Shown here in pieces: positions 55,782 through 64,000 of a DNA stretch of 64,000 nt. Positions within the stretch are counted from its first letter, which is position 1. Each line of letters begins with the position of its first letter. Made by a program: the position numbers and the translations under genes. The notes under the pieces are model-generated. The model worked only from the letters and a program-made list of their open reading frames with translations. It did not search any database and was not told the DNA's origin. The DNA is taken from assembly GCF_001713455.1 (NCBI RefSeq), contig NZ_CP016464.1:3768001-3832000 (forward strand). Direction: 5' to 3'. Source of the stretch: Bosea sp. RAC05. GTDB taxonomy: Bacteria; Pseudomonadota; Alphaproteobacteria; Rhizobiales; Beijerinckiaceae.

Positions 55782-56537
55782 TCAGACCAGCCCGCCATCG
55801 ACATGAAGCGTCTGGCCCGTGATGTAGGAGGCTTCCGTCGAGGCGAGAAAAGCGATGGCGGCCGCAACCTCCTCCGGCCGGCCGCGCCGTCCGATCGGGA
55901 TGATCGCCTCCATCCGCGCGATCGCCTCGGCGGCGAGCTTGCTGCCCTTGCCCTCGTCCTTGCGGATCAGCCCGGGCGCGACCGCATTCACGGTGATCGC
56001 GTCCGCCGCCAGCTCCTGCGCCATCAGACGCACCGTCGTCTCCAGCGCGGCGCGGCTGGCGGCGGTGGCGGCGAAGGGCTGCATGTCGGTGCGCAGCGCA
56101 TGGGCGGTGAAGGACGACGTCGCGACGATGCGCCCGCTGCCGCCGGCCTTCAGCAGCGGCCGCGCCATCCGCGCCAGCCGCAGGAGGGCAACAACGGAAT
56201 CCTCGACGGCACCACGCAGCTCCGCCTCGGCCAGATCCATGATGCCGCCCTTGCGGGCATGCCCCGCCACGGCCGCAATGGCGTCGAGCCGGCCGAAGCG
56301 CTGATCGGCCAGTGCCACCGCGCGCTCCGCCGTCGAGGCCTCGGCGATGTCCCCCATCAGGGTAGCCACGACGGCGCCCGCCGCCCCCGCCGCTGCCGCG
56401 ACCGCCGCGAGCCCGGCTTCGTTCGAGCCCGTATGCAGCACGAGCCCGACGCCGGGCCCAGCCAGCCGCAGGGCGGTCGCCCGGCCGATACCGCTGGCAG
56501 CACCGGTGACGAGATGGACGCGCTCGGGGGACACCAT
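55782..56537 (-). CDS. Short-chain dehydrogenase/reductase
   Basis: This 251-residue SDR has the Rossmann motif VTGAASGIGRATALRL near residue 10, the catalytic Ser in IVATSSFTAH and the C-terminal YITGQTLHVDGG. The usual YxxxK Tyr is replaced: the sequence ATAASRAALETTV has no Tyr or Lys in the YxxxK position. This departure from the Ser-Tyr-Lys triad may mean altered or lost catalysis. The start at 56537 is preceded by a tRNA gene 56 bases upstream; longer readings would enter that tRNA. Confidence 0.82.
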   Translation of the reverse strand: MVSPERVHLVTGAASGIGRATALRLAGPGVGLVLHTGSNEAGLAAVAAAAGAAGAVVATLMGDIAEASTAERAVALADQRFGRLDAIAAVAGHARKGGIMDLAEAELRGAVEDSVVALLRLARMARPLLKAGGSGRIVATSSFTAHALRTDMQPFAATAASRAALETTVRLMAQELAADAITVNAVAPGLIRKDEGKGSKLAAEAIARMEAIIPIGRRGRPEEVAAAIAFLASTEASYITGQTLHVDGGLV

Positions 56538-56593
56538 CGGCAGGAGGAACCTTTGCTGCGGTCTGAGACCGGATTCGCGGTTCTGATCGGAAG

Positions 56594-56669
56594 TGGTGGG
56601 CCGGGCCGGACTCGAACCGGCACCGGCGCTGTTATGAGCAGCGAGCTCTAACCATTGAGCTACCGGCCC
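56594..56669 (-). tRNA. tRNA with CAU anticodon, probably tRNA-Ile2 (lysidine-modified), possibly tRNA-Met
   Basis: On the minus strand the 76-base sequence folds as a full cloverleaf: acceptor GGGCCGG/CCGGCCC, D arm GCTC/GAGC, anticodon arm CGCTG-CTCATAA-CAGCG, T arm GCCGG-TTCGAGT-CCGGC, discriminator A and an encoded CCA at 56594-56596. The anticodon is CAU. The short D loop and C4, C5 in the acceptor fit TilS-recognised tRNA-Ile2 rather than elongator tRNA-Met. The identity is inferred from these features. Confidence 0.88.
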
Positions 56670-56718
56670 GTGTCTCGCGTAGCATCGCCGCCGAGCCTGC
56701 GGCAAGCGTCATCCACCG

Positions 56719-58112
56719 GTCGCCCCAAAGCCGAAGGCCCCGCCATCTGCGGGATGGCGGGGCCTTTCGATGTCGTGCCGTTTGGTCTCTGGACGGTCAG
56801 GCGGCGTGGGCCATGGCATGGGCCTTGTCGGAGCCGTGGCCCTCGCGGAAGCGGAAGCGGGCGATGTGCTCGCTCAGCGCGCGGGTCTGCTCGTCGGTCA
56901 GCGCCAGCGCGGCGTTGGTTTCCTCGACCAGGGCTGCGTTCTGATGCGCCATCGAGCCGATGCCGTCGATCTCGGTGTTGATCGCCGAGACATCGCTGGC
57001 CTGGTTCTTCGCCGTCTGCGAGATGCCGTTCATCAGCCCGGTCAGGTCGTTCACCGAGGAGACGATCGCCTCGAACATCTGGGCGGTCTCCTCGACCAGC
57101 CCGACACCGACCTTGACGTCGCCATGCGCCGCCTCGACCAGCTTCTTGACGTCGTTGGAAGCATCCGCCGAGCGCTTGGCCAGGCTGCGGACCTCGGTGG
57201 CGACGACCGCGAAGCCCCGCCCGCTGTCGCCGGCCCGCGCCGCCTCGACGGCCGCGTTCAGCGCCAGCAGATTGGTCTGGAAGGCGATCTCGTCGATCAT
57301 CGCGATGACCTCGGAGATCTTGTCCGAGGAGGTGCGGATGCGCTGCATCGCCTCGAGCGCGGATGCCACGACCTTCTCGCCCTGCTGGGCCTGACTCTCG
57401 GCGCCCTCGGCCATGCCCGTCGCCTGGGCCGCCTCGCTCGCCGTCTTCTTGACCGTGCCGGCGAAGGCGCCGAGCTGGTTGGTCGCCATCGAGACGGCGT
57501 TGCTCTCCTCGCTGGTGCGCTCGGCGAGATCGGTGACGCCGTCGAGGATCTCGGTCGTGGCGCTGCGGACGGCAGCGACCGTCTCGGACAGCTTGGCGAG
57601 CGTGCTCTCGAACTCCTCGGCCAGCGCATTGGTGCCGTTCTTCAGCTCGGCGAAGGCGCCCTGATACATCCCCTCGATGCGGGTCGAGAGATGGCCGGCC
57701 GAGAGTTCGGCGAGCACGTCGCAGGTCTCGGAGAGACCGCCCTGCACCGTCTCCAGCAGTTCGTTGACCGAACCCGCCAGCGCGTTCAGCTCGGCGTCCG
57801 TGAAGTTCGCCTGGACACGGCGGCTGAAATCGCCGGCGGCGGCCGCGGCCACGACCTCGCCGAAGGCGTCGCCGAGTTCCGCCATCATCGCGCGGCGCTG
57901 CTCCTGGGCCCGGGCATCGTCCTCGACCTTGGCGGCCTCGGCGGCGCGCAGCGCCACCGCATTGTCGCGGAACAGCAGCACGCTCTTCGAGATGTCGGAG
58001 ATCTCGTCGTTACCCCGCGTGTCGACCACCGTCTCCAGGGCGCCGTCGGCGATCGCCCGCGTCGCCGCCCACAGCCGGTTCAGGCGCCCGATGATCGCAG
58101 GACGGACATAGA
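56719..58112 (-). repeat. Long direct repeat, copy 1 (signalling half of receptor plus terminator)
   Basis: From GTCGCCCC at 56719 to ATAGA ending at 58112 (1,394 bases) the sequence matches 59632-61025 with no difference I could see. The offset is exactly 2,913 bases. It covers the terminator, the gene end and the last 437 codons of the receptor. The N-terminal sensory halves of the two genes are related but diverged. The perfect identity of so long a stretch points to recent gene conversion or duplication with homogenisation. Confidence 0.9.
56734..56766 (-). terminator. Hairpin terminator after the first tandem receptor gene
   Basis: AAGGCCCCGCCATC at 56734-56747 pairs with GATGGCGGGGCCTT at 56753-56766 across a 5-base loop. 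The receptor gene stops at 56797. On the minus strand the hairpin is followed by CGGCTTTGG, a weak T-tract; on the plus strand by TTCGATG. It recurs identically at 59647-59679 after the second receptor gene, as part of the long direct repeat. Confidence 0.7.
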
Positions 58113-59202
58113 AGAGCGAGAGCGACAGGGCGATCAGCAGCGAGCCGATGCCGATCGCGCCCAGCCACATCTCGCTCTGCTGGATCAGGCTCGCCGTCGA
58201 GGCACTGGCGGCGACGGCCTCGCCGCGGGCGCCCTCGACCAGTTTGTCGACCTGGCCGCGCAGGGTTGCGGCGGCGCGGTCGACCGTCTTCAGCGTGGTG
58301 GCGATCTCGCCCAGCGTGGTCAGGTCGCGCTCGCGCATCTCGACGATGCCGGAACGCCCCTCGCCCATCGCGATGACGGCCTCGACGACCTGTCCGCGGA
58401 AGGGATTGGAGGACGCGGCCTCGGCGGCCTGCAACTCCATGCGGATGCGCATGGCGGTGGCCTTGAAGCGCTCGCGCGCGATGTCGAGGCGCGCCTTGTC
58501 GGGGATCTGCGCGGTCTCGCGCAGCATGCCCATCATCTCGTTGACCTGCGCCTCGAGCTTGCGGGCGAAGTCGAAGACGGGGAAGTCGCGGTCGTTCAGC
58601 GTCTTCATCGCCGCATCGAGCTGCTCGCCCGACAGGCCCTTGATGCTCTCGATGCCCATGGTGACGTTGAAGCGGGCCTCGTCGGCCTCGGAACCGACGA
58701 CGCCGCTGAACACGCGCCCCGCCTTCCCGAGATTCTCGAGCAGGCCGTTCATCGCCGCCGCGTTGCGCATCCTGGCGCCGGTGAGGTCGTTGATCTCGTT
58801 GATGGTGCGCGAGAGCTCGTCGACCGCCTGCTGGGTCGCCTTCATGTCGAGCCCGCTGAGCGCACCGATCCGGCGGATCAGGTCGAACTGGCGCGCCTCG
58901 ATCCGGTCGAGTTCACTGGTCAGGGCCGCGCGCTGCTGGACGTTCTCGACATCCATGAAGCGCGGCGCCAGCGCCGTCGACAAGGTCGCCGCCTGCGACA
59001 GTTCGAGCGCGAGCTCGACCATCGGCATCTTCTGTCCCGCCATGTCCTGAACCGTCTTGTCGACCCGGCCGAAGGAGAGCCAGGCGACGGCCGAGGCCAC
59101 GATCGTCAGCGCGGTCATCAATCCCACGGCTGCATAGATCCGCGCGGCGATGCCGATGCGGAGCGGTTTGCGCTGGCGGGGGAGCTTGCTGGCCTTCGTC
59201 AT
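56797..59202 (-). CDS. Methyl-accepting chemotaxis protein, tandem copy 1
   Basis: This 801-residue receptor has a membrane segment at about residues 18-45 ([20 protein letters not shown]), a periplasmic part of about 290 residues, a second membrane segment at about 345-368 ([20 protein letters not shown]), two HAMP-type segments and the MCP signalling domain with [20 protein letters not shown]. From residue 365 to the end it is identical to the receptor at 59.7-62.1 kb. It ends in KAHAMAHAA, with no CheR-tethering pentapeptide. ATG at 59202 is preceded by GGAGAG. Confidence 0.93.
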
Positions 59203-59406
59203 CGATCGCTCTCCGGTATGCAACGCGACAGTGTCGATGAGGAAGCTGGTGCGGGGCTTTTGGAAGTCTCCGAGGGAGGCTGCCAAACGCAAGACTGCCA
59301 TCAGCGCCGCGACATTCGGCAACCGAAGACGAGCCCCCGAACCGCTCCGCACCTCAACTGTCGTTAGGCGGGAACCTTGTTCAAACGACAAATCGTCCGG
59401 ATGCGC

Positions 59407-59475
59407 TTAAAGAACGTTTAAGCTTGCGGATTCTTTTGAATCAGTCGCTCAGGACCCCGATTCAGCTACCGTTAG
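59407..59475 (-). promoter_or_regulatory. CtrA-like box and GATTC repeat module before tandem receptor copy 1
   Basis: TTAA-AGAACGT-TTAA (59407-59421) matches the CtrA consensus TTAA-N7-TTAA exactly. It is followed by GGATTC (59428), GAATCA (59438), GATTCAG (59459) and CGTTAG (59470). The same elements occur with spacing equal to within one base at 63395-63462. The module lies 205-273 bases upstream of the receptor start. It is likely a CtrA-controlled promoter with an additional dyad site. Confidence 0.6.
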
Positions 59476-59631
59476 GGAATGTGACTCGCTTGTTTGCTCT
59501 TCGCGACCGGTTTTCGGCAATTGCGGGAGCGCCTTTTTGTCATCCCCTGCGGAGCCATGCCCGCCACCGCGCGCGCTGACGGCGCCGGGGCTGGCGGCGT
59601 CTGGGCGCCGCCCCGTCCAGGGTTGCAAGCC

Positions 59632-61025
59632 GTCGCCCCAAAGCCGAAGGCCCCGCCATCTGCGGGATGGCGGGGCCTTTCGATGTCGTGCCGTTTGGTC
59701 TCTGGACGGTCAGGCGGCGTGGGCCATGGCATGGGCCTTGTCGGAGCCGTGGCCCTCGCGGAAGCGGAAGCGGGCGATGTGCTCGCTCAGCGCGCGGGTC
59801 TGCTCGTCGGTCAGCGCCAGCGCGGCGTTGGTTTCCTCGACCAGGGCTGCGTTCTGATGCGCCATCGAGCCGATGCCGTCGATCTCGGTGTTGATCGCCG
59901 AGACATCGCTGGCCTGGTTCTTCGCCGTCTGCGAGATGCCGTTCATCAGCCCGGTCAGGTCGTTCACCGAGGAGACGATCGCCTCGAACATCTGGGCGGT
60001 CTCCTCGACCAGCCCGACACCGACCTTGACGTCGCCATGCGCCGCCTCGACCAGCTTCTTGACGTCGTTGGAAGCATCCGCCGAGCGCTTGGCCAGGCTG
60101 CGGACCTCGGTGGCGACGACCGCGAAGCCCCGCCCGCTGTCGCCGGCCCGCGCCGCCTCGACGGCCGCGTTCAGCGCCAGCAGATTGGTCTGGAAGGCGA
60201 TCTCGTCGATCATCGCGATGACCTCGGAGATCTTGTCCGAGGAGGTGCGGATGCGCTGCATCGCCTCGAGCGCGGATGCCACGACCTTCTCGCCCTGCTG
60301 GGCCTGACTCTCGGCGCCCTCGGCCATGCCCGTCGCCTGGGCCGCCTCGCTCGCCGTCTTCTTGACCGTGCCGGCGAAGGCGCCGAGCTGGTTGGTCGCC
60401 ATCGAGACGGCGTTGCTCTCCTCGCTGGTGCGCTCGGCGAGATCGGTGACGCCGTCGAGGATCTCGGTCGTGGCGCTGCGGACGGCAGCGACCGTCTCGG
60501 ACAGCTTGGCGAGCGTGCTCTCGAACTCCTCGGCCAGCGCATTGGTGCCGTTCTTCAGCTCGGCGAAGGCGCCCTGATACATCCCCTCGATGCGGGTCGA
60601 GAGATGGCCGGCCGAGAGTTCGGCGAGCACGTCGCAGGTCTCGGAGAGACCGCCCTGCACCGTCTCCAGCAGTTCGTTGACCGAACCCGCCAGCGCGTTC
60701 AGCTCGGCGTCCGTGAAGTTCGCCTGGACACGGCGGCTGAAATCGCCGGCGGCGGCCGCGGCCACGACCTCGCCGAAGGCGTCGCCGAGTTCCGCCATCA
60801 TCGCGCGGCGCTGCTCCTGGGCCCGGGCATCGTCCTCGACCTTGGCGGCCTCGGCGGCGCGCAGCGCCACCGCATTGTCGCGGAACAGCAGCACGCTCTT
60901 CGAGATGTCGGAGATCTCGTCGTTACCCCGCGTGTCGACCACCGTCTCCAGGGCGCCGTCGGCGATCGCCCGCGTCGCCGCCCACAGCCGGTTCAGGCGC
61001 CCGATGATCGCAGGACGGACATAGA
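59632..61025 (-). repeat. Long direct repeat, copy 2 (signalling half of receptor plus terminator)
   Basis: This is the second copy of the 1,394-base repeat, offset by 2,913 bases from 56719-58112. The identity breaks at 61026 (G versus A at 58113), just before the codons for the second membrane segment, and at 59631 on the other side. A shorter identical stretch resumes just beyond (CGATCAGCAGCGAGCCGATG), showing that the flanks are related but diverged. Confidence 0.9.
59647..59679 (-). terminator. Hairpin terminator after the second tandem receptor gene
   Basis: This 14-base stem (59647-59660 with 59666-59679) is identical to that at 56734-56766. It lies 31 bases past the stop of the receptor gene at 59710 and upstream of the promoter module of the first copy. 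The repetition is part of the long direct repeat. Confidence 0.7.
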
Positions 61026-62115
61026 GCAAGGCCAGCACGAGAGCGATCAGCAGCGAGCCGATGCCGATCGCGCCCAGCCACATCTTGCTCTGCTCGATCA
61101 GATTCGCCGTCGAGGCGTTCGCGGCGACGGCCTCGGAGCGAGCCGCTGTGACGAGCTTGTCGATTTCCGCACGCATCGCCGCCGCAGCCTGGTCGATGTC
61201 GACGACGCGGGCATTGATCGCGTCCTGCGTTTCGATGTCGCGCTGGCGCATCGCGACCACGCCGCGCGGCCCTTCGCCCAAGGCGATGACCGCGTCGATC
61301 ACGCGGGACCGCTCCTTGTTGGGCATGATCTTGTCGGCGGCGGCCATGTCCTTCTCGATCCGCAGCACGACGGCGTTGAGGCGTTCGCGCGCGAGGCCCA
61401 GCAGCGACTGATCCGCGATCTGGCCGACCTCGCGCAGCAGGCCTATCAGCTCGTTGACCTGTGCCTCCAGCTTGCGTGCCAGATCGAAGGCCGGAAACTC
61501 GACGTCGTTGATGGCCTTCAGGGCCTCGTCGATCCCCGCGCCCTCCTGGCCCTTGACGCTCTCGATGCCGAGCACGACGTTGAACTGGCGCTCGTCGGCC
61601 TCTCCGCCGACCACCTTGACGAAGTCTTCGCGCGCCTTGTTCAGCTGCTCAACGGTGGCCGCCATCTGCGCGGCGTTGCGCAGCCGGGTTCCGGTCAGGT
61701 CGTTGATGTCGTTGATCCGCAGCGAGAGATCGTCGACCGCCTTCTGAACCGGCTTCATGTCGACGCCGCCGATCTTGCCGACGGCCCGGATCAGTTCGAA
61801 CTGCTTGGCCTCGATCGCGTCCAGTTCCGTGGTCAGACGGGCCCGCTGCTGCACCGTCTGCACATTCATGAAGCGCGGTGCCAGCGCGGTCGACTGCGTC
61901 CCGACCTGGGAGAGTTCGAGCACGAGTTCCACAGTGGGCATCTTGTGCTCGACCATTTCGCCGACGGTCGCGCTGATGCGGTCATAGGACAGCCAGGCCA
62001 CCGCGGAGGCGACGATCGTCAGCGTGGTCAGAGCGCCGAGCGCGGCATAGATGCGCGCGGCGATGCCGATGCGCAGCGGCGCGCGCGGGCGCGCCGGCTT
62101 CTTGGCCTTCGTCAT
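59710..62115 (-). CDS. Methyl-accepting chemotaxis protein, tandem copy 2
   Basis: This 801-residue receptor has the same layout and exact length as copy 1. Its N-terminal part differs ([20 protein letters not shown], then a periplasmic helical region with [13 protein letters not shown]) while residues 365-801 are identical. The periplasmic part is long enough for a helical bundle sensor. Its start is 34 bases after the stop of an exported binding-protein gene, so the two are probably co-transcribed. It has no C-terminal pentapeptide. Confidence 0.93.
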
Positions 62116-62149
62116 ATCACTCTCCGAATTGCGACGCGGCAGATGCAGC

Positions 62150-63316
62150 TCAGGCCGACACGGAGCTGACCGACTTGAACGTGCCGTCGGTTCCGATCAC
62201 GGTCAGGTAGACAGCGTCGGAGCCGCGATTGTCGTTGGGCCCGAAGGTCATCTTGAAGCCGCCGAAGTCATAGGAGCCATTGGTCAACGCCTCCATGACG
62301 GCCTTGCGGGTCGGGTCCTTGCCGGCCTTTTCGAGAGCGGCGATGACGGTGCGGCCGACGAGATAGCCTTCCAGGGACACGAAGCCCGGCTTCTTGTCCT
62401 TGGCGTCGCTGGCCGCGAGAGCCGCCTGGTAGGCCTTGACCACGGGGATCGACGCGTCGGTCGGCAGGGGCACGACCTGCGTGACATAGACGCCGGCGCC
62501 CGCATCCCCGAGTTCGGCGGCAAGTGCATCGGAGCCGACGAAGGAGATGTTCATGAACACCGGCGCGAACTTCACCTGCTTGCACAGCTTGATGAATTCG
62601 GCGCAGGGCTTGTAGGGGCCCACCATCACCACGGCTTCCGGATTGGCCTTGCGGATCTCGAGCAGGGCGGACCGGACCGCGACCGTGTTGCGTTCAAAGG
62701 TGCCCTCCGCGACGAGGCTCATCTTGCGCGCGTCCATCGCCTTCTTGACGCCGGCGAGGCCGGCCCGGCCGAAGGCGTCGTCCTGATAGAAGATCGCGAT
62801 CTTGGAGAAGCCCTTGTCCTTGACGAGGCGCTCGATCCAGACCTCGGTCTCCTGGAAGTAGGAGGCGCGCACATTGACGACATGCGGCAGGTAGGGATCG
62901 CGCAGGCCTTCGGCGCCGGTGAAGGCGCCGATGAAGGGCAGGCCGGCCTCCTTCGCGATCGGATGCGCGGCCATCGACGTCGGCGTGCCGACCGGGCCGA
63001 CGAGCGCGAAGACGTCCTTGGCGATCAGCGCCTTGGTCGCATCGATCGACTTGCCGGGCTCGTAACCGTCATCCTGCGTCAGGAGTTCGATCTTGCGCCC
63101 CCCGACGCCCCCCTTGGCATTGACCTCGGCGAAGGCGGCGGTGAGGCCATCGCGCATACCCAGACCCAGCGCGCTGGCGGGCCCCTCGAACACGGCCGCC
63201 TGGCCCAGCACGATCTTGTCGGCCATCACGCCGGTTTCGGCGAAAGCGCGTCCCGGCAGGAGCGAGGCGGCGGAGGCGCAGGCAAGGCCAGTCAGGACAT
63301 CACGACGATGGATCAT
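62150..63316 (-). CDS. Branched-chain amino acid-type periplasmic binding protein, orphan
   Basis: This 388-residue protein starts [20 protein letters not shown], a Tat-type signal ending at Ala-Glu near residue 26, then [20 protein letters not shown] and [19 protein letters not shown] of the LivJ/ANF-like family 6. It has [20 protein letters not shown] and [14 protein letters not shown]. No livHMGF-type permease or ATPase gene is next to it; instead it is followed by a receptor gene. It may present a ligand to that receptor. Confidence 0.9.
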
Positions 63317-63649: not shown

Positions 63650-64000
63650 TCAGGCCGGTTGGGGCACCGGGCGCGGCCGCCCCTCCTCGTCGATGGCGAC
63701 GAAGGTGAAGGTCGCGTCGGTGACCTTCTCATGGACCATGGTGCGGAAGCGCCGCGCCCAGGCCTCGACATGGATCTTCATCGAGGTCCGGCCGACGGAT
63801 TCGACCTCGGTATAGACGCTGAGCACGTCCCCCACCTTCACGGGCCGGATGAACGTCATCGCATCCACCGCAATGGTGACGACGCGGCCCTGCGCCCGGT
63901 CGACGCCGGCGATGCCGCCGGCCGCGTCCATGCGCGACATCACCCAGCCGCCGAAGATGTCGCCATTCGCGTTGGTGTCGGCCGGCATGGCATTGATGCG
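63650..64000 (-). CDS. Acyl-CoA thioesterase (YciA type), 5' end outside the window
   Basis: The frame is open to the right edge, giving 116 residues of the C-terminal and central part. RINAMPADTNANGDIFGGWVMSRMD is the hotdog-fold hallmark of YciA-like acyl-CoA thioesterases, with the catalytic Asp in GDIFGGW. It continues AMTFIRPVKVGDVLSVYTEV and DATFTFVAIDEEGRPRPVP. It hydrolyses acyl-CoA thioesters. The start codon lies beyond base 64000, since AMPADTN is preceded by in-frame residues in relatives. Confidence 0.87.
   Translation of the reverse strand, partial: RINAMPADTNANGDIFGGWVMSRMDAAGGIAGVDRAQGRVVTIAVDAMTFIRPVKVGDVLSVYTEVESVGRTSMKIHVEAWARRFRTMVHEKVTDATFTFVAIDEEGRPRPVPQPA

Follow-up and report, generated by a model that had tools for sequence, protein, structure and literature searches.

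How can two neighbouring genes be identical to the last base over one half and plainly diverged over the other? The question is raised by two tandem chemoreceptor genes in a 64,000-nucleotide stretch of the Bosea sp. RAC05 genome (contig NZ_CP016464.1, positions 3,768,001 to 3,832,000), called the window here; coordinates are positions within it. The answer proposed, to which we give a probability of roughly 0.88, is that the pair is old and that its signalling halves are under recurrent gene conversion, while its sensor halves stay distinct. The parts of the pair are these:

56797..59202, minus strand: receptor gene 1, 801 amino acids (aa), with HAMP, HAMP_2 and MCPsignal domains (open reading frame and domain search)
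59710..62115, minus strand: receptor gene 2, 801 aa, with HAMP, HAMP_2 and MCPsignal domains (open reading frame and domain search)
56719..58112, minus strand: identical block, gene 1 copy, comprising the signalling half and 78 bases of 3' flank (alignment)
59632..61025, minus strand: identical block, gene 2 copy (alignment)
58113..59202, minus strand: gene 1 sensor half, 70% identical in DNA to that of gene 2; groups with single-copy receptors without a binding protein
61026..62115, minus strand: gene 2 sensor half, with a predicted TorS-like all-helical fold; groups with binding-protein-linked receptors
56736..56765, minus strand: terminator-like hairpin following gene 1 (identified by reading the sequence, without folding)
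59649..59678, minus strand: the same terminator-like hairpin 3' of gene 2 (read from the sequence)

Both open reading frames (ORFs) consist of 801 codons and a stop. An earlier note on this DNA had described them as equal in length and collinear at an offset of 2,913 bases, and base-by-base alignment agrees. The products are methyl-accepting chemotaxis proteins (MCPs): MCPsignal and HAMP were found by domain search, and two membrane segments were read from the sequence and a model. At the offset of 2,913 the longest exact run is 1,394 bases (56719-58112 = 59632-61025). The note's claim of zero differences from residue 365 to the end and on through the terminator is borne out, with no mismatch in the block and 324 in the remaining 1,090 gene bases, all of them in the sensor half. 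If the 324 differences were placed at random, such an empty block would have a log10 probability of about -130. With no base differing across 1,394 bases, the identity of the block is taken to be young. The 5.62 Mb genome holds two copies of it and no third was found there; after these, the best match covers 246 bases at 78%.

The inner edge of the block is as sharp as had been claimed. Mismatches resume at the base directly after it, 58113, which corresponds to residue 364/365, where the second membrane helix ends, directly before HAMP (370-414). Outside the edge identity is graded, with about 80% in the adjacent 138 bases (27 differences) and an average of ~70% farther out. The outer edge lies 78 bases 3' of the stop codon, past the terminator-like hairpin. 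Sharp-edged tracts inside otherwise diverged paralogues are found here and in another Bosea genome, G009, described below. Open antisense frames also cover both genes (56770-59367, plus strand, 865 codons; 59494-62169, plus strand, 891 codons). G+C-rich coding DNA often has such long antisense open frames.

Concerted evolution by gene conversion leaves copies more alike within than between genomes. Among 67 Bosea genomes, four carry the tandem pair: that of the window, the one-contig genome G077, and the metagenome-assembled genomes (MAGs) G074 and G075, whose contigs, C18 and C8 respectively, break at or near the repeat. Divergence at silent sites (dS) was calculated by NG86, with the C-terminal (signalling) half given in two parts, of which C8 has only the first. 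Between copies in the window it is 0.61 for the N-terminal (sensor) half and 0.00/0.00 for the C half. The values are 0.75 and 0.14/0.23 within G077, and 0.68 and 0.19 within C8. Between the window and G077 they are 0.31-0.34 for the N half and 0.16-0.29 for the C half. In the signalling half, silent-site likeness of the pair is greater within than between genomes. The G077 copies have C halves 86-100% alike per 150-base interval, including a 365-base exact run, and N halves 54-72% alike.

Further evidence is provided by sites that are informative among four sequences, scored as same gene : same genome : crossed. Comparison of the window with G077 gives 215:4:5 in the N half and 0:56:0 in the C half. 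With the C half partial, the window and C8 give 183:6:4 and 0:45:0, and G077 and C8 give 185:13:7 and 2:49:2. In trees, the N halves (57 rows) split gene 1 from gene 2, and the C halves (56 rows) pair the copies by genome. Approximately unbiased (AU) tests reject a single clade of the gene-1 C halves (p 0.0005) and one of the window N halves (p 0.0004). The earlier note had proposed recent conversion of the signalling halves and a comparison with relatives as its check. That comparison, made on G077, supports the proposal: C halves are closer within a genome and group by genome, and N halves are closer between genomes and group by gene.

Three other explanations bear on these data. One is that the signalling halves are kept identical by nothing but purifying selection. 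In most Bosea species the protein is indeed more conserved in the signalling half (81-95%, 99% in short pieces) than in the sensor half (46-82%). Yet identity extends to the silent sites and the terminator, although this half has reached a dS of 0.16-0.29 between the window and G077. Since silent sites are identical, this explanation is refuted, and we leave it almost no probability.

A second explanation is a recent tandem duplication of the whole gene, after which one sensor half was replaced by DNA of another lineage, so that the identical half is merely young. This would also predict an identical half with a sharp edge, and replacement of a sensor half is known at this locus in Bosea sp. 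Root381 (L097). However, both orthologous sensor halves are present in the pair of four genomes. The N halves of the window and G077 are about as diverged as the C halves (dS 0.31-0.34 against 0.16-0.29), so both copies predate the split. The gene 2 N half and the binding protein also appear to track the species tree among pair-bearing genomes. Independent duplications would be needed, together with repeated imports of the same sensor in each genome, which makes this history improbable. The same evidence divides a further claim, that the sensor halves diverge while the outputs are kept uniform. Divergence of the sensors stands; divergence after a recent duplication does not, as the sensor halves are older than the species split.

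The third explanation, an assembly or polishing artefact in which a repeat was collapsed or copied, is suggested by the exact identity across 1,394 bases and by the broken MAG contigs. Against this, the unique sensor halves and flanks lie on one 4.9 Mb contig. G077 has the same gene order, and its copies differ at 59 C-half sites. An artefact would not group the C halves of G077 and C8 by genome. The earlier note had named an assembly duplication as what would overturn it; with same-order pairs and distinct sensor halves in relatives, and differing copies in G077, such an error is very unlikely.

If recurrent conversion is the answer, the direction of the last event can be asked. The terminator common to both window genes resembles that of G077 gene 1 and the tRNA-side flank of L064, a locus on a 5.9 kb MAG contig; the flank of G077 gene 2 differs. 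Since both window genes carry a gene-1-type 3' flank, gene 1 was the donor and gene 2 the recipient in the last event. The C halves of the two G077 copies differ at 59 sites; here the window agrees with gene 1 at 39, with gene 2 at 18 and with neither at 2. The first 17 of these sites are evenly split (gene 1 8, gene 2 8, neither 1).

Gene 2 itself has a mixed ancestry. Its sensor half clusters with L073 and L171, single receptors linked to a binding protein, and its signalling half falls outside the L073/L171 grouping (AU p 3e-64). As its halves differ in kinship, gene 2 is read as a composite, with a sensor half from a binding-protein-linked lineage and a signalling half from the resident gene-1 lineage. 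Two single loci have related arrangements. In L064 (3056-5662) a gene 2 sensor half is joined to the gene 1 downstream flank and tRNA-Met, possibly through deletion by crossover between two signalling halves or through assembly error. In L097 (6001-8397, Bosea sp. Root381) the C half of a single receptor groups with L066/L068/L072 (support 98/93) and the N half lies in another clade (AU p 2e-44); on these trees it is a natural swap of the sensor half.

Is conversion confined to the pair? The earlier note had described conversion between the two neighbours, which holds, but some dispersed receptors are affected as well. MCPsignal matches number 38 in the window's own genome, 50 in G077 and 32 in G009, of which the high-scoring receptors were compared (17, 26 and 16). 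Orthologues were defined by reciprocal best N parts, and the tandem family was excluded. At third positions of the core, the best same-genome paralogue is closer than the orthologue in 45 of 70 comparisons; 35 of 60 remain when 10 comparisons with N parts less than 60% identical, all positive, are set aside. A stricter measure, four-sequence tests on eight window/G077 families, shows same-genome kinship in 6 of 28 (3 pairs in families a/b/c, 3 in d/e/f). AU tests reject the orthologue clade for families a, b, c, e, f and h. Orthology is followed by g and j (AU tests) and by i, k, l, n and o. With the full set of 45 cores in one tree, genome labels show only weak clustering (18 in 200 shuffles were as low); on the 28 cores of the recombining class they are clustered (0 of 200).

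The clearest example is G009, a genome in one contig. Four of its genes, L228, L229, L230 and L231, lie at 309, 878, 1,862 and 2,023 kb, at least 160 kb apart. All six pairs share exact runs of 941-1,076 bases, of which 941 bases are common to all four, and the N parts are 22-28% identical. The tracts begin between HAMP and HAMP_2 and finish past the MCPsignal domain. Collinear flanks put L229, L231 and L230 each at the locus of its window orthologue. L228 is without such placement, and its N part is only 45% identical to its best match.

Exact runs were also compared in seven genomes, with tandem-locus receptors excluded and with G011, G013, G019 and G050 represented by receptors at E <= 1e-35 only. 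The longest within-genome runs are 146 bases in the window genome, 164 in G077, 1,076 in G009, 369 in G050, 57 in G011, 165 in G013 and 191 in G019. Between genomes the longest run is 140 bases in the window/G077 comparison, against 44-92 in the other 20 genome pairs. Runs above 140 occur in 17 of 738 within-genome pairs. The window's own dispersed run of 146 is not notable, because the between-genome maximum for the window and G077 is 140. Outside the genus, a cut-off of E <= 1e-35 leaves just 1 receptor in G034 and 2 in G036. Perfect matches between L024/L029, L022/L025 (1,203 bases), L009/L013 and L016/L017 (546 bases) were rejected as overlapping neighbouring loci. L022/L025 form another tandem pair (window genome, C2, near 962 and 960 kb), whose C parts are 95.5% alike across 687 bases. 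Judged from sequence comparison, conversion acts patchily between some dispersed Bosea receptors, and several families follow ordinary descent.

Several observations weigh against recurrent conversion or limit its reach. In the last third of the C8 C half, likeness is 93.4% within the genome and 91.5-93.9% between genomes. There is no within-genome excess, and therefore no recent conversion there. The excess in C18 is small. Polishing could have erased a few differences between the window copies. Among the dispersed window/G077 receptors, 20 of the 28 four-sequence tests support orthology and 2 support neither kinship. G011 shows no long tract, 57 bases being the most among its receptors at E <= 1e-35.

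The proposed process can now be stated. In an old tandem pair, the sensor halves stay apart while the signalling halves are overwritten again and again by gene conversion. In the latest event in the window, the whole signalling half and terminator of gene 1 were copied onto gene 2. The same process acts patchily between some dispersed Bosea receptors with signalling cores similar enough for recombination. RecA-dependent recombination would probably be seeded in the strongly conserved core, and the tract would end on reaching the diverged sensor half or C-terminal tail.

Whether this sameness serves a purpose is a separate question. Receptor arrays mix many types and need compatible signalling tips, a matching that, in genomes with dozens of receptors, is usually ascribed to purifying selection on each gene. 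Conversion may be real but passive, with conserved cores supplying homology and sameness arising without benefit. This concerns the cause only and overlaps with recurrent conversion as proposed here. The tracts sit in the conserved core and stop close to diverged sequence, the class of the tandem pair, unlike others, finds no third partner, and the observations are accounted for without selection; we lean towards this cause. A more tentative idea, which we hold to be possible but rather unlikely, is selected homogenisation across the genome. A winning signalling variant would be spread by conversion to its receptor class, keeping a common kinase-facing surface in mixed arrays, and sensor halves with their own binding-protein genes would diversify and swap. 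The repertoire would then consist of interchangeable sensor cartridges, all served by a single co-evolving output module. The earlier note had likewise put forward a benefit to mixed arrays as an inference.

The sensor of gene 2 has a neighbour that may be its partner. The surroundings of the pair are as follows:

62150..63316, minus strand: gene for an orphan periplasmic binding protein (Peripla_BP_6), lying upstream of gene 2 across a 34-base gap
63650..64000, minus strand: 4HBT thioesterase gene, cut by the window end, a conserved upstream neighbour
59203..59631, no strand: unique intergenic sequence; the portion to about 59482 matches the region upstream of the relatives' single receptor
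56594..56669, minus strand: tRNA-Met, downstream of gene 1, a conserved neighbour

A TorS fold is predicted for the sensor half, with structure search matches, by their titles, to 3o1h, 3o1i, 3o1j, 3i9w and 3i9y. Neither window N half matches Pfam PF21689 up to E 1, L097 reaching E 0.14, short of the cut-off; Pfam gave sub-threshold matches only, such as 4HB_MCP_1 and TarH. A PDB sequence search with the N-half alignment returned 8 rows at E <= 1, with no TorS or chemoreceptor structure, and was not used. The binding-protein gene stands beside the sensor gene at a gap of 34 bases in the window, and no ABC transporter domain was found among 9 ORFs of at least 180 aa in the 7 kb upstream in G077. 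On the N tree the binding-protein label is clustered (3 changes, 0 of 500 shuffles as low). Gene 2 and the orphan binding-protein gene upstream form a TorT/TorS-like layout. Gene adjacency and co-occurrence suggest that the binding protein presents a ligand to the sensor of receptor 2, as TorT does to TorS, and the common signalling half would relay the signal to the shared kinase array.

Receptor relatives (E <= 1e-75) are present in 60 of the 67 Bosea genomes. In two of these, G064 and G073, the match reaches only 37-39% identity and is probably a different receptor; two fragments in G005 are probably one gene split by contig ends. The binding protein occurs in 9 of the 67. Among the loci from the relative search (L064-L107), 42 of 44 contain part of both receptor halves. 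Of these 42, 33 have the order 4HBT thioesterase, receptor, tRNA-Met without the binding-protein gene, which is present at 6. The full order is kept in G077: 4HBT, binding protein, gene 2, gene 1, tRNA-Met, SDR, HemN. At some loci an ORF of 410-470 aa separates the thioesterase from the receptor or binding-protein gene (L073:3112-4524, L074:4381-5613); judged by eye, it resembles a pilus-type (Tad) protein. The mechanically called SDR ORF of the window (55782-56705) begins upstream of tRNA-Met and reads through it; its true start is probably later, since G077 homology begins only after the tRNA.

How does this locus compare with known systems? Its predicted sensor fold and adjoining periplasmic binding protein gene are like those of TorT/TorS. 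The output differs, being a chemoreceptor signalling half in place of a histidine kinase; the binding protein is a Peripla_BP_6 member, and a complex with the sensor is suggested here by gene adjacency and co-occurrence. In H. pylori, intragenomic recombination between tlpA and tlpC inverted a 9 kb fragment within a host (PMC6531487). This resembles Bosea in being recombination of chemoreceptor genes; no homogenisation is described in the available text of that source.

The closest example is found in Campylobacter jejuni, where the paralogous receptors Tlp2, Tlp3 and Tlp4 have identical signalling domains and sensors about 30% identical (PMC9769880). The signalling-domain tree mirrors the genome tree and the sensor tree does not. 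The account given there, as far as its available text goes, is domain duplication and drift, with gene conversion named once, for conversion into a pseudogene (PMC9769880). In Bosea, by comparison, silent sites, four-sequence tests, flanks and synteny show repeated gene-to-gene copying in several genomes. Identical signalling domains were thus already known; concerted evolution of chemoreceptor signalling halves was not found in a literature search, outside which most subscription papers lay.

In Bosea, DNA copying between genes does part of the work of receptor matching, over whole signalling cores and at separate loci. Trees of MCP signalling domains can consequently reflect genome kinship rather than gene kinship, and natural receptors with identical output halves and differing sensors become available. 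Compared with concerted evolution in general, the Bosea receptors are distinguished in that one half of each protein joins in and the sensor half stays distinct.

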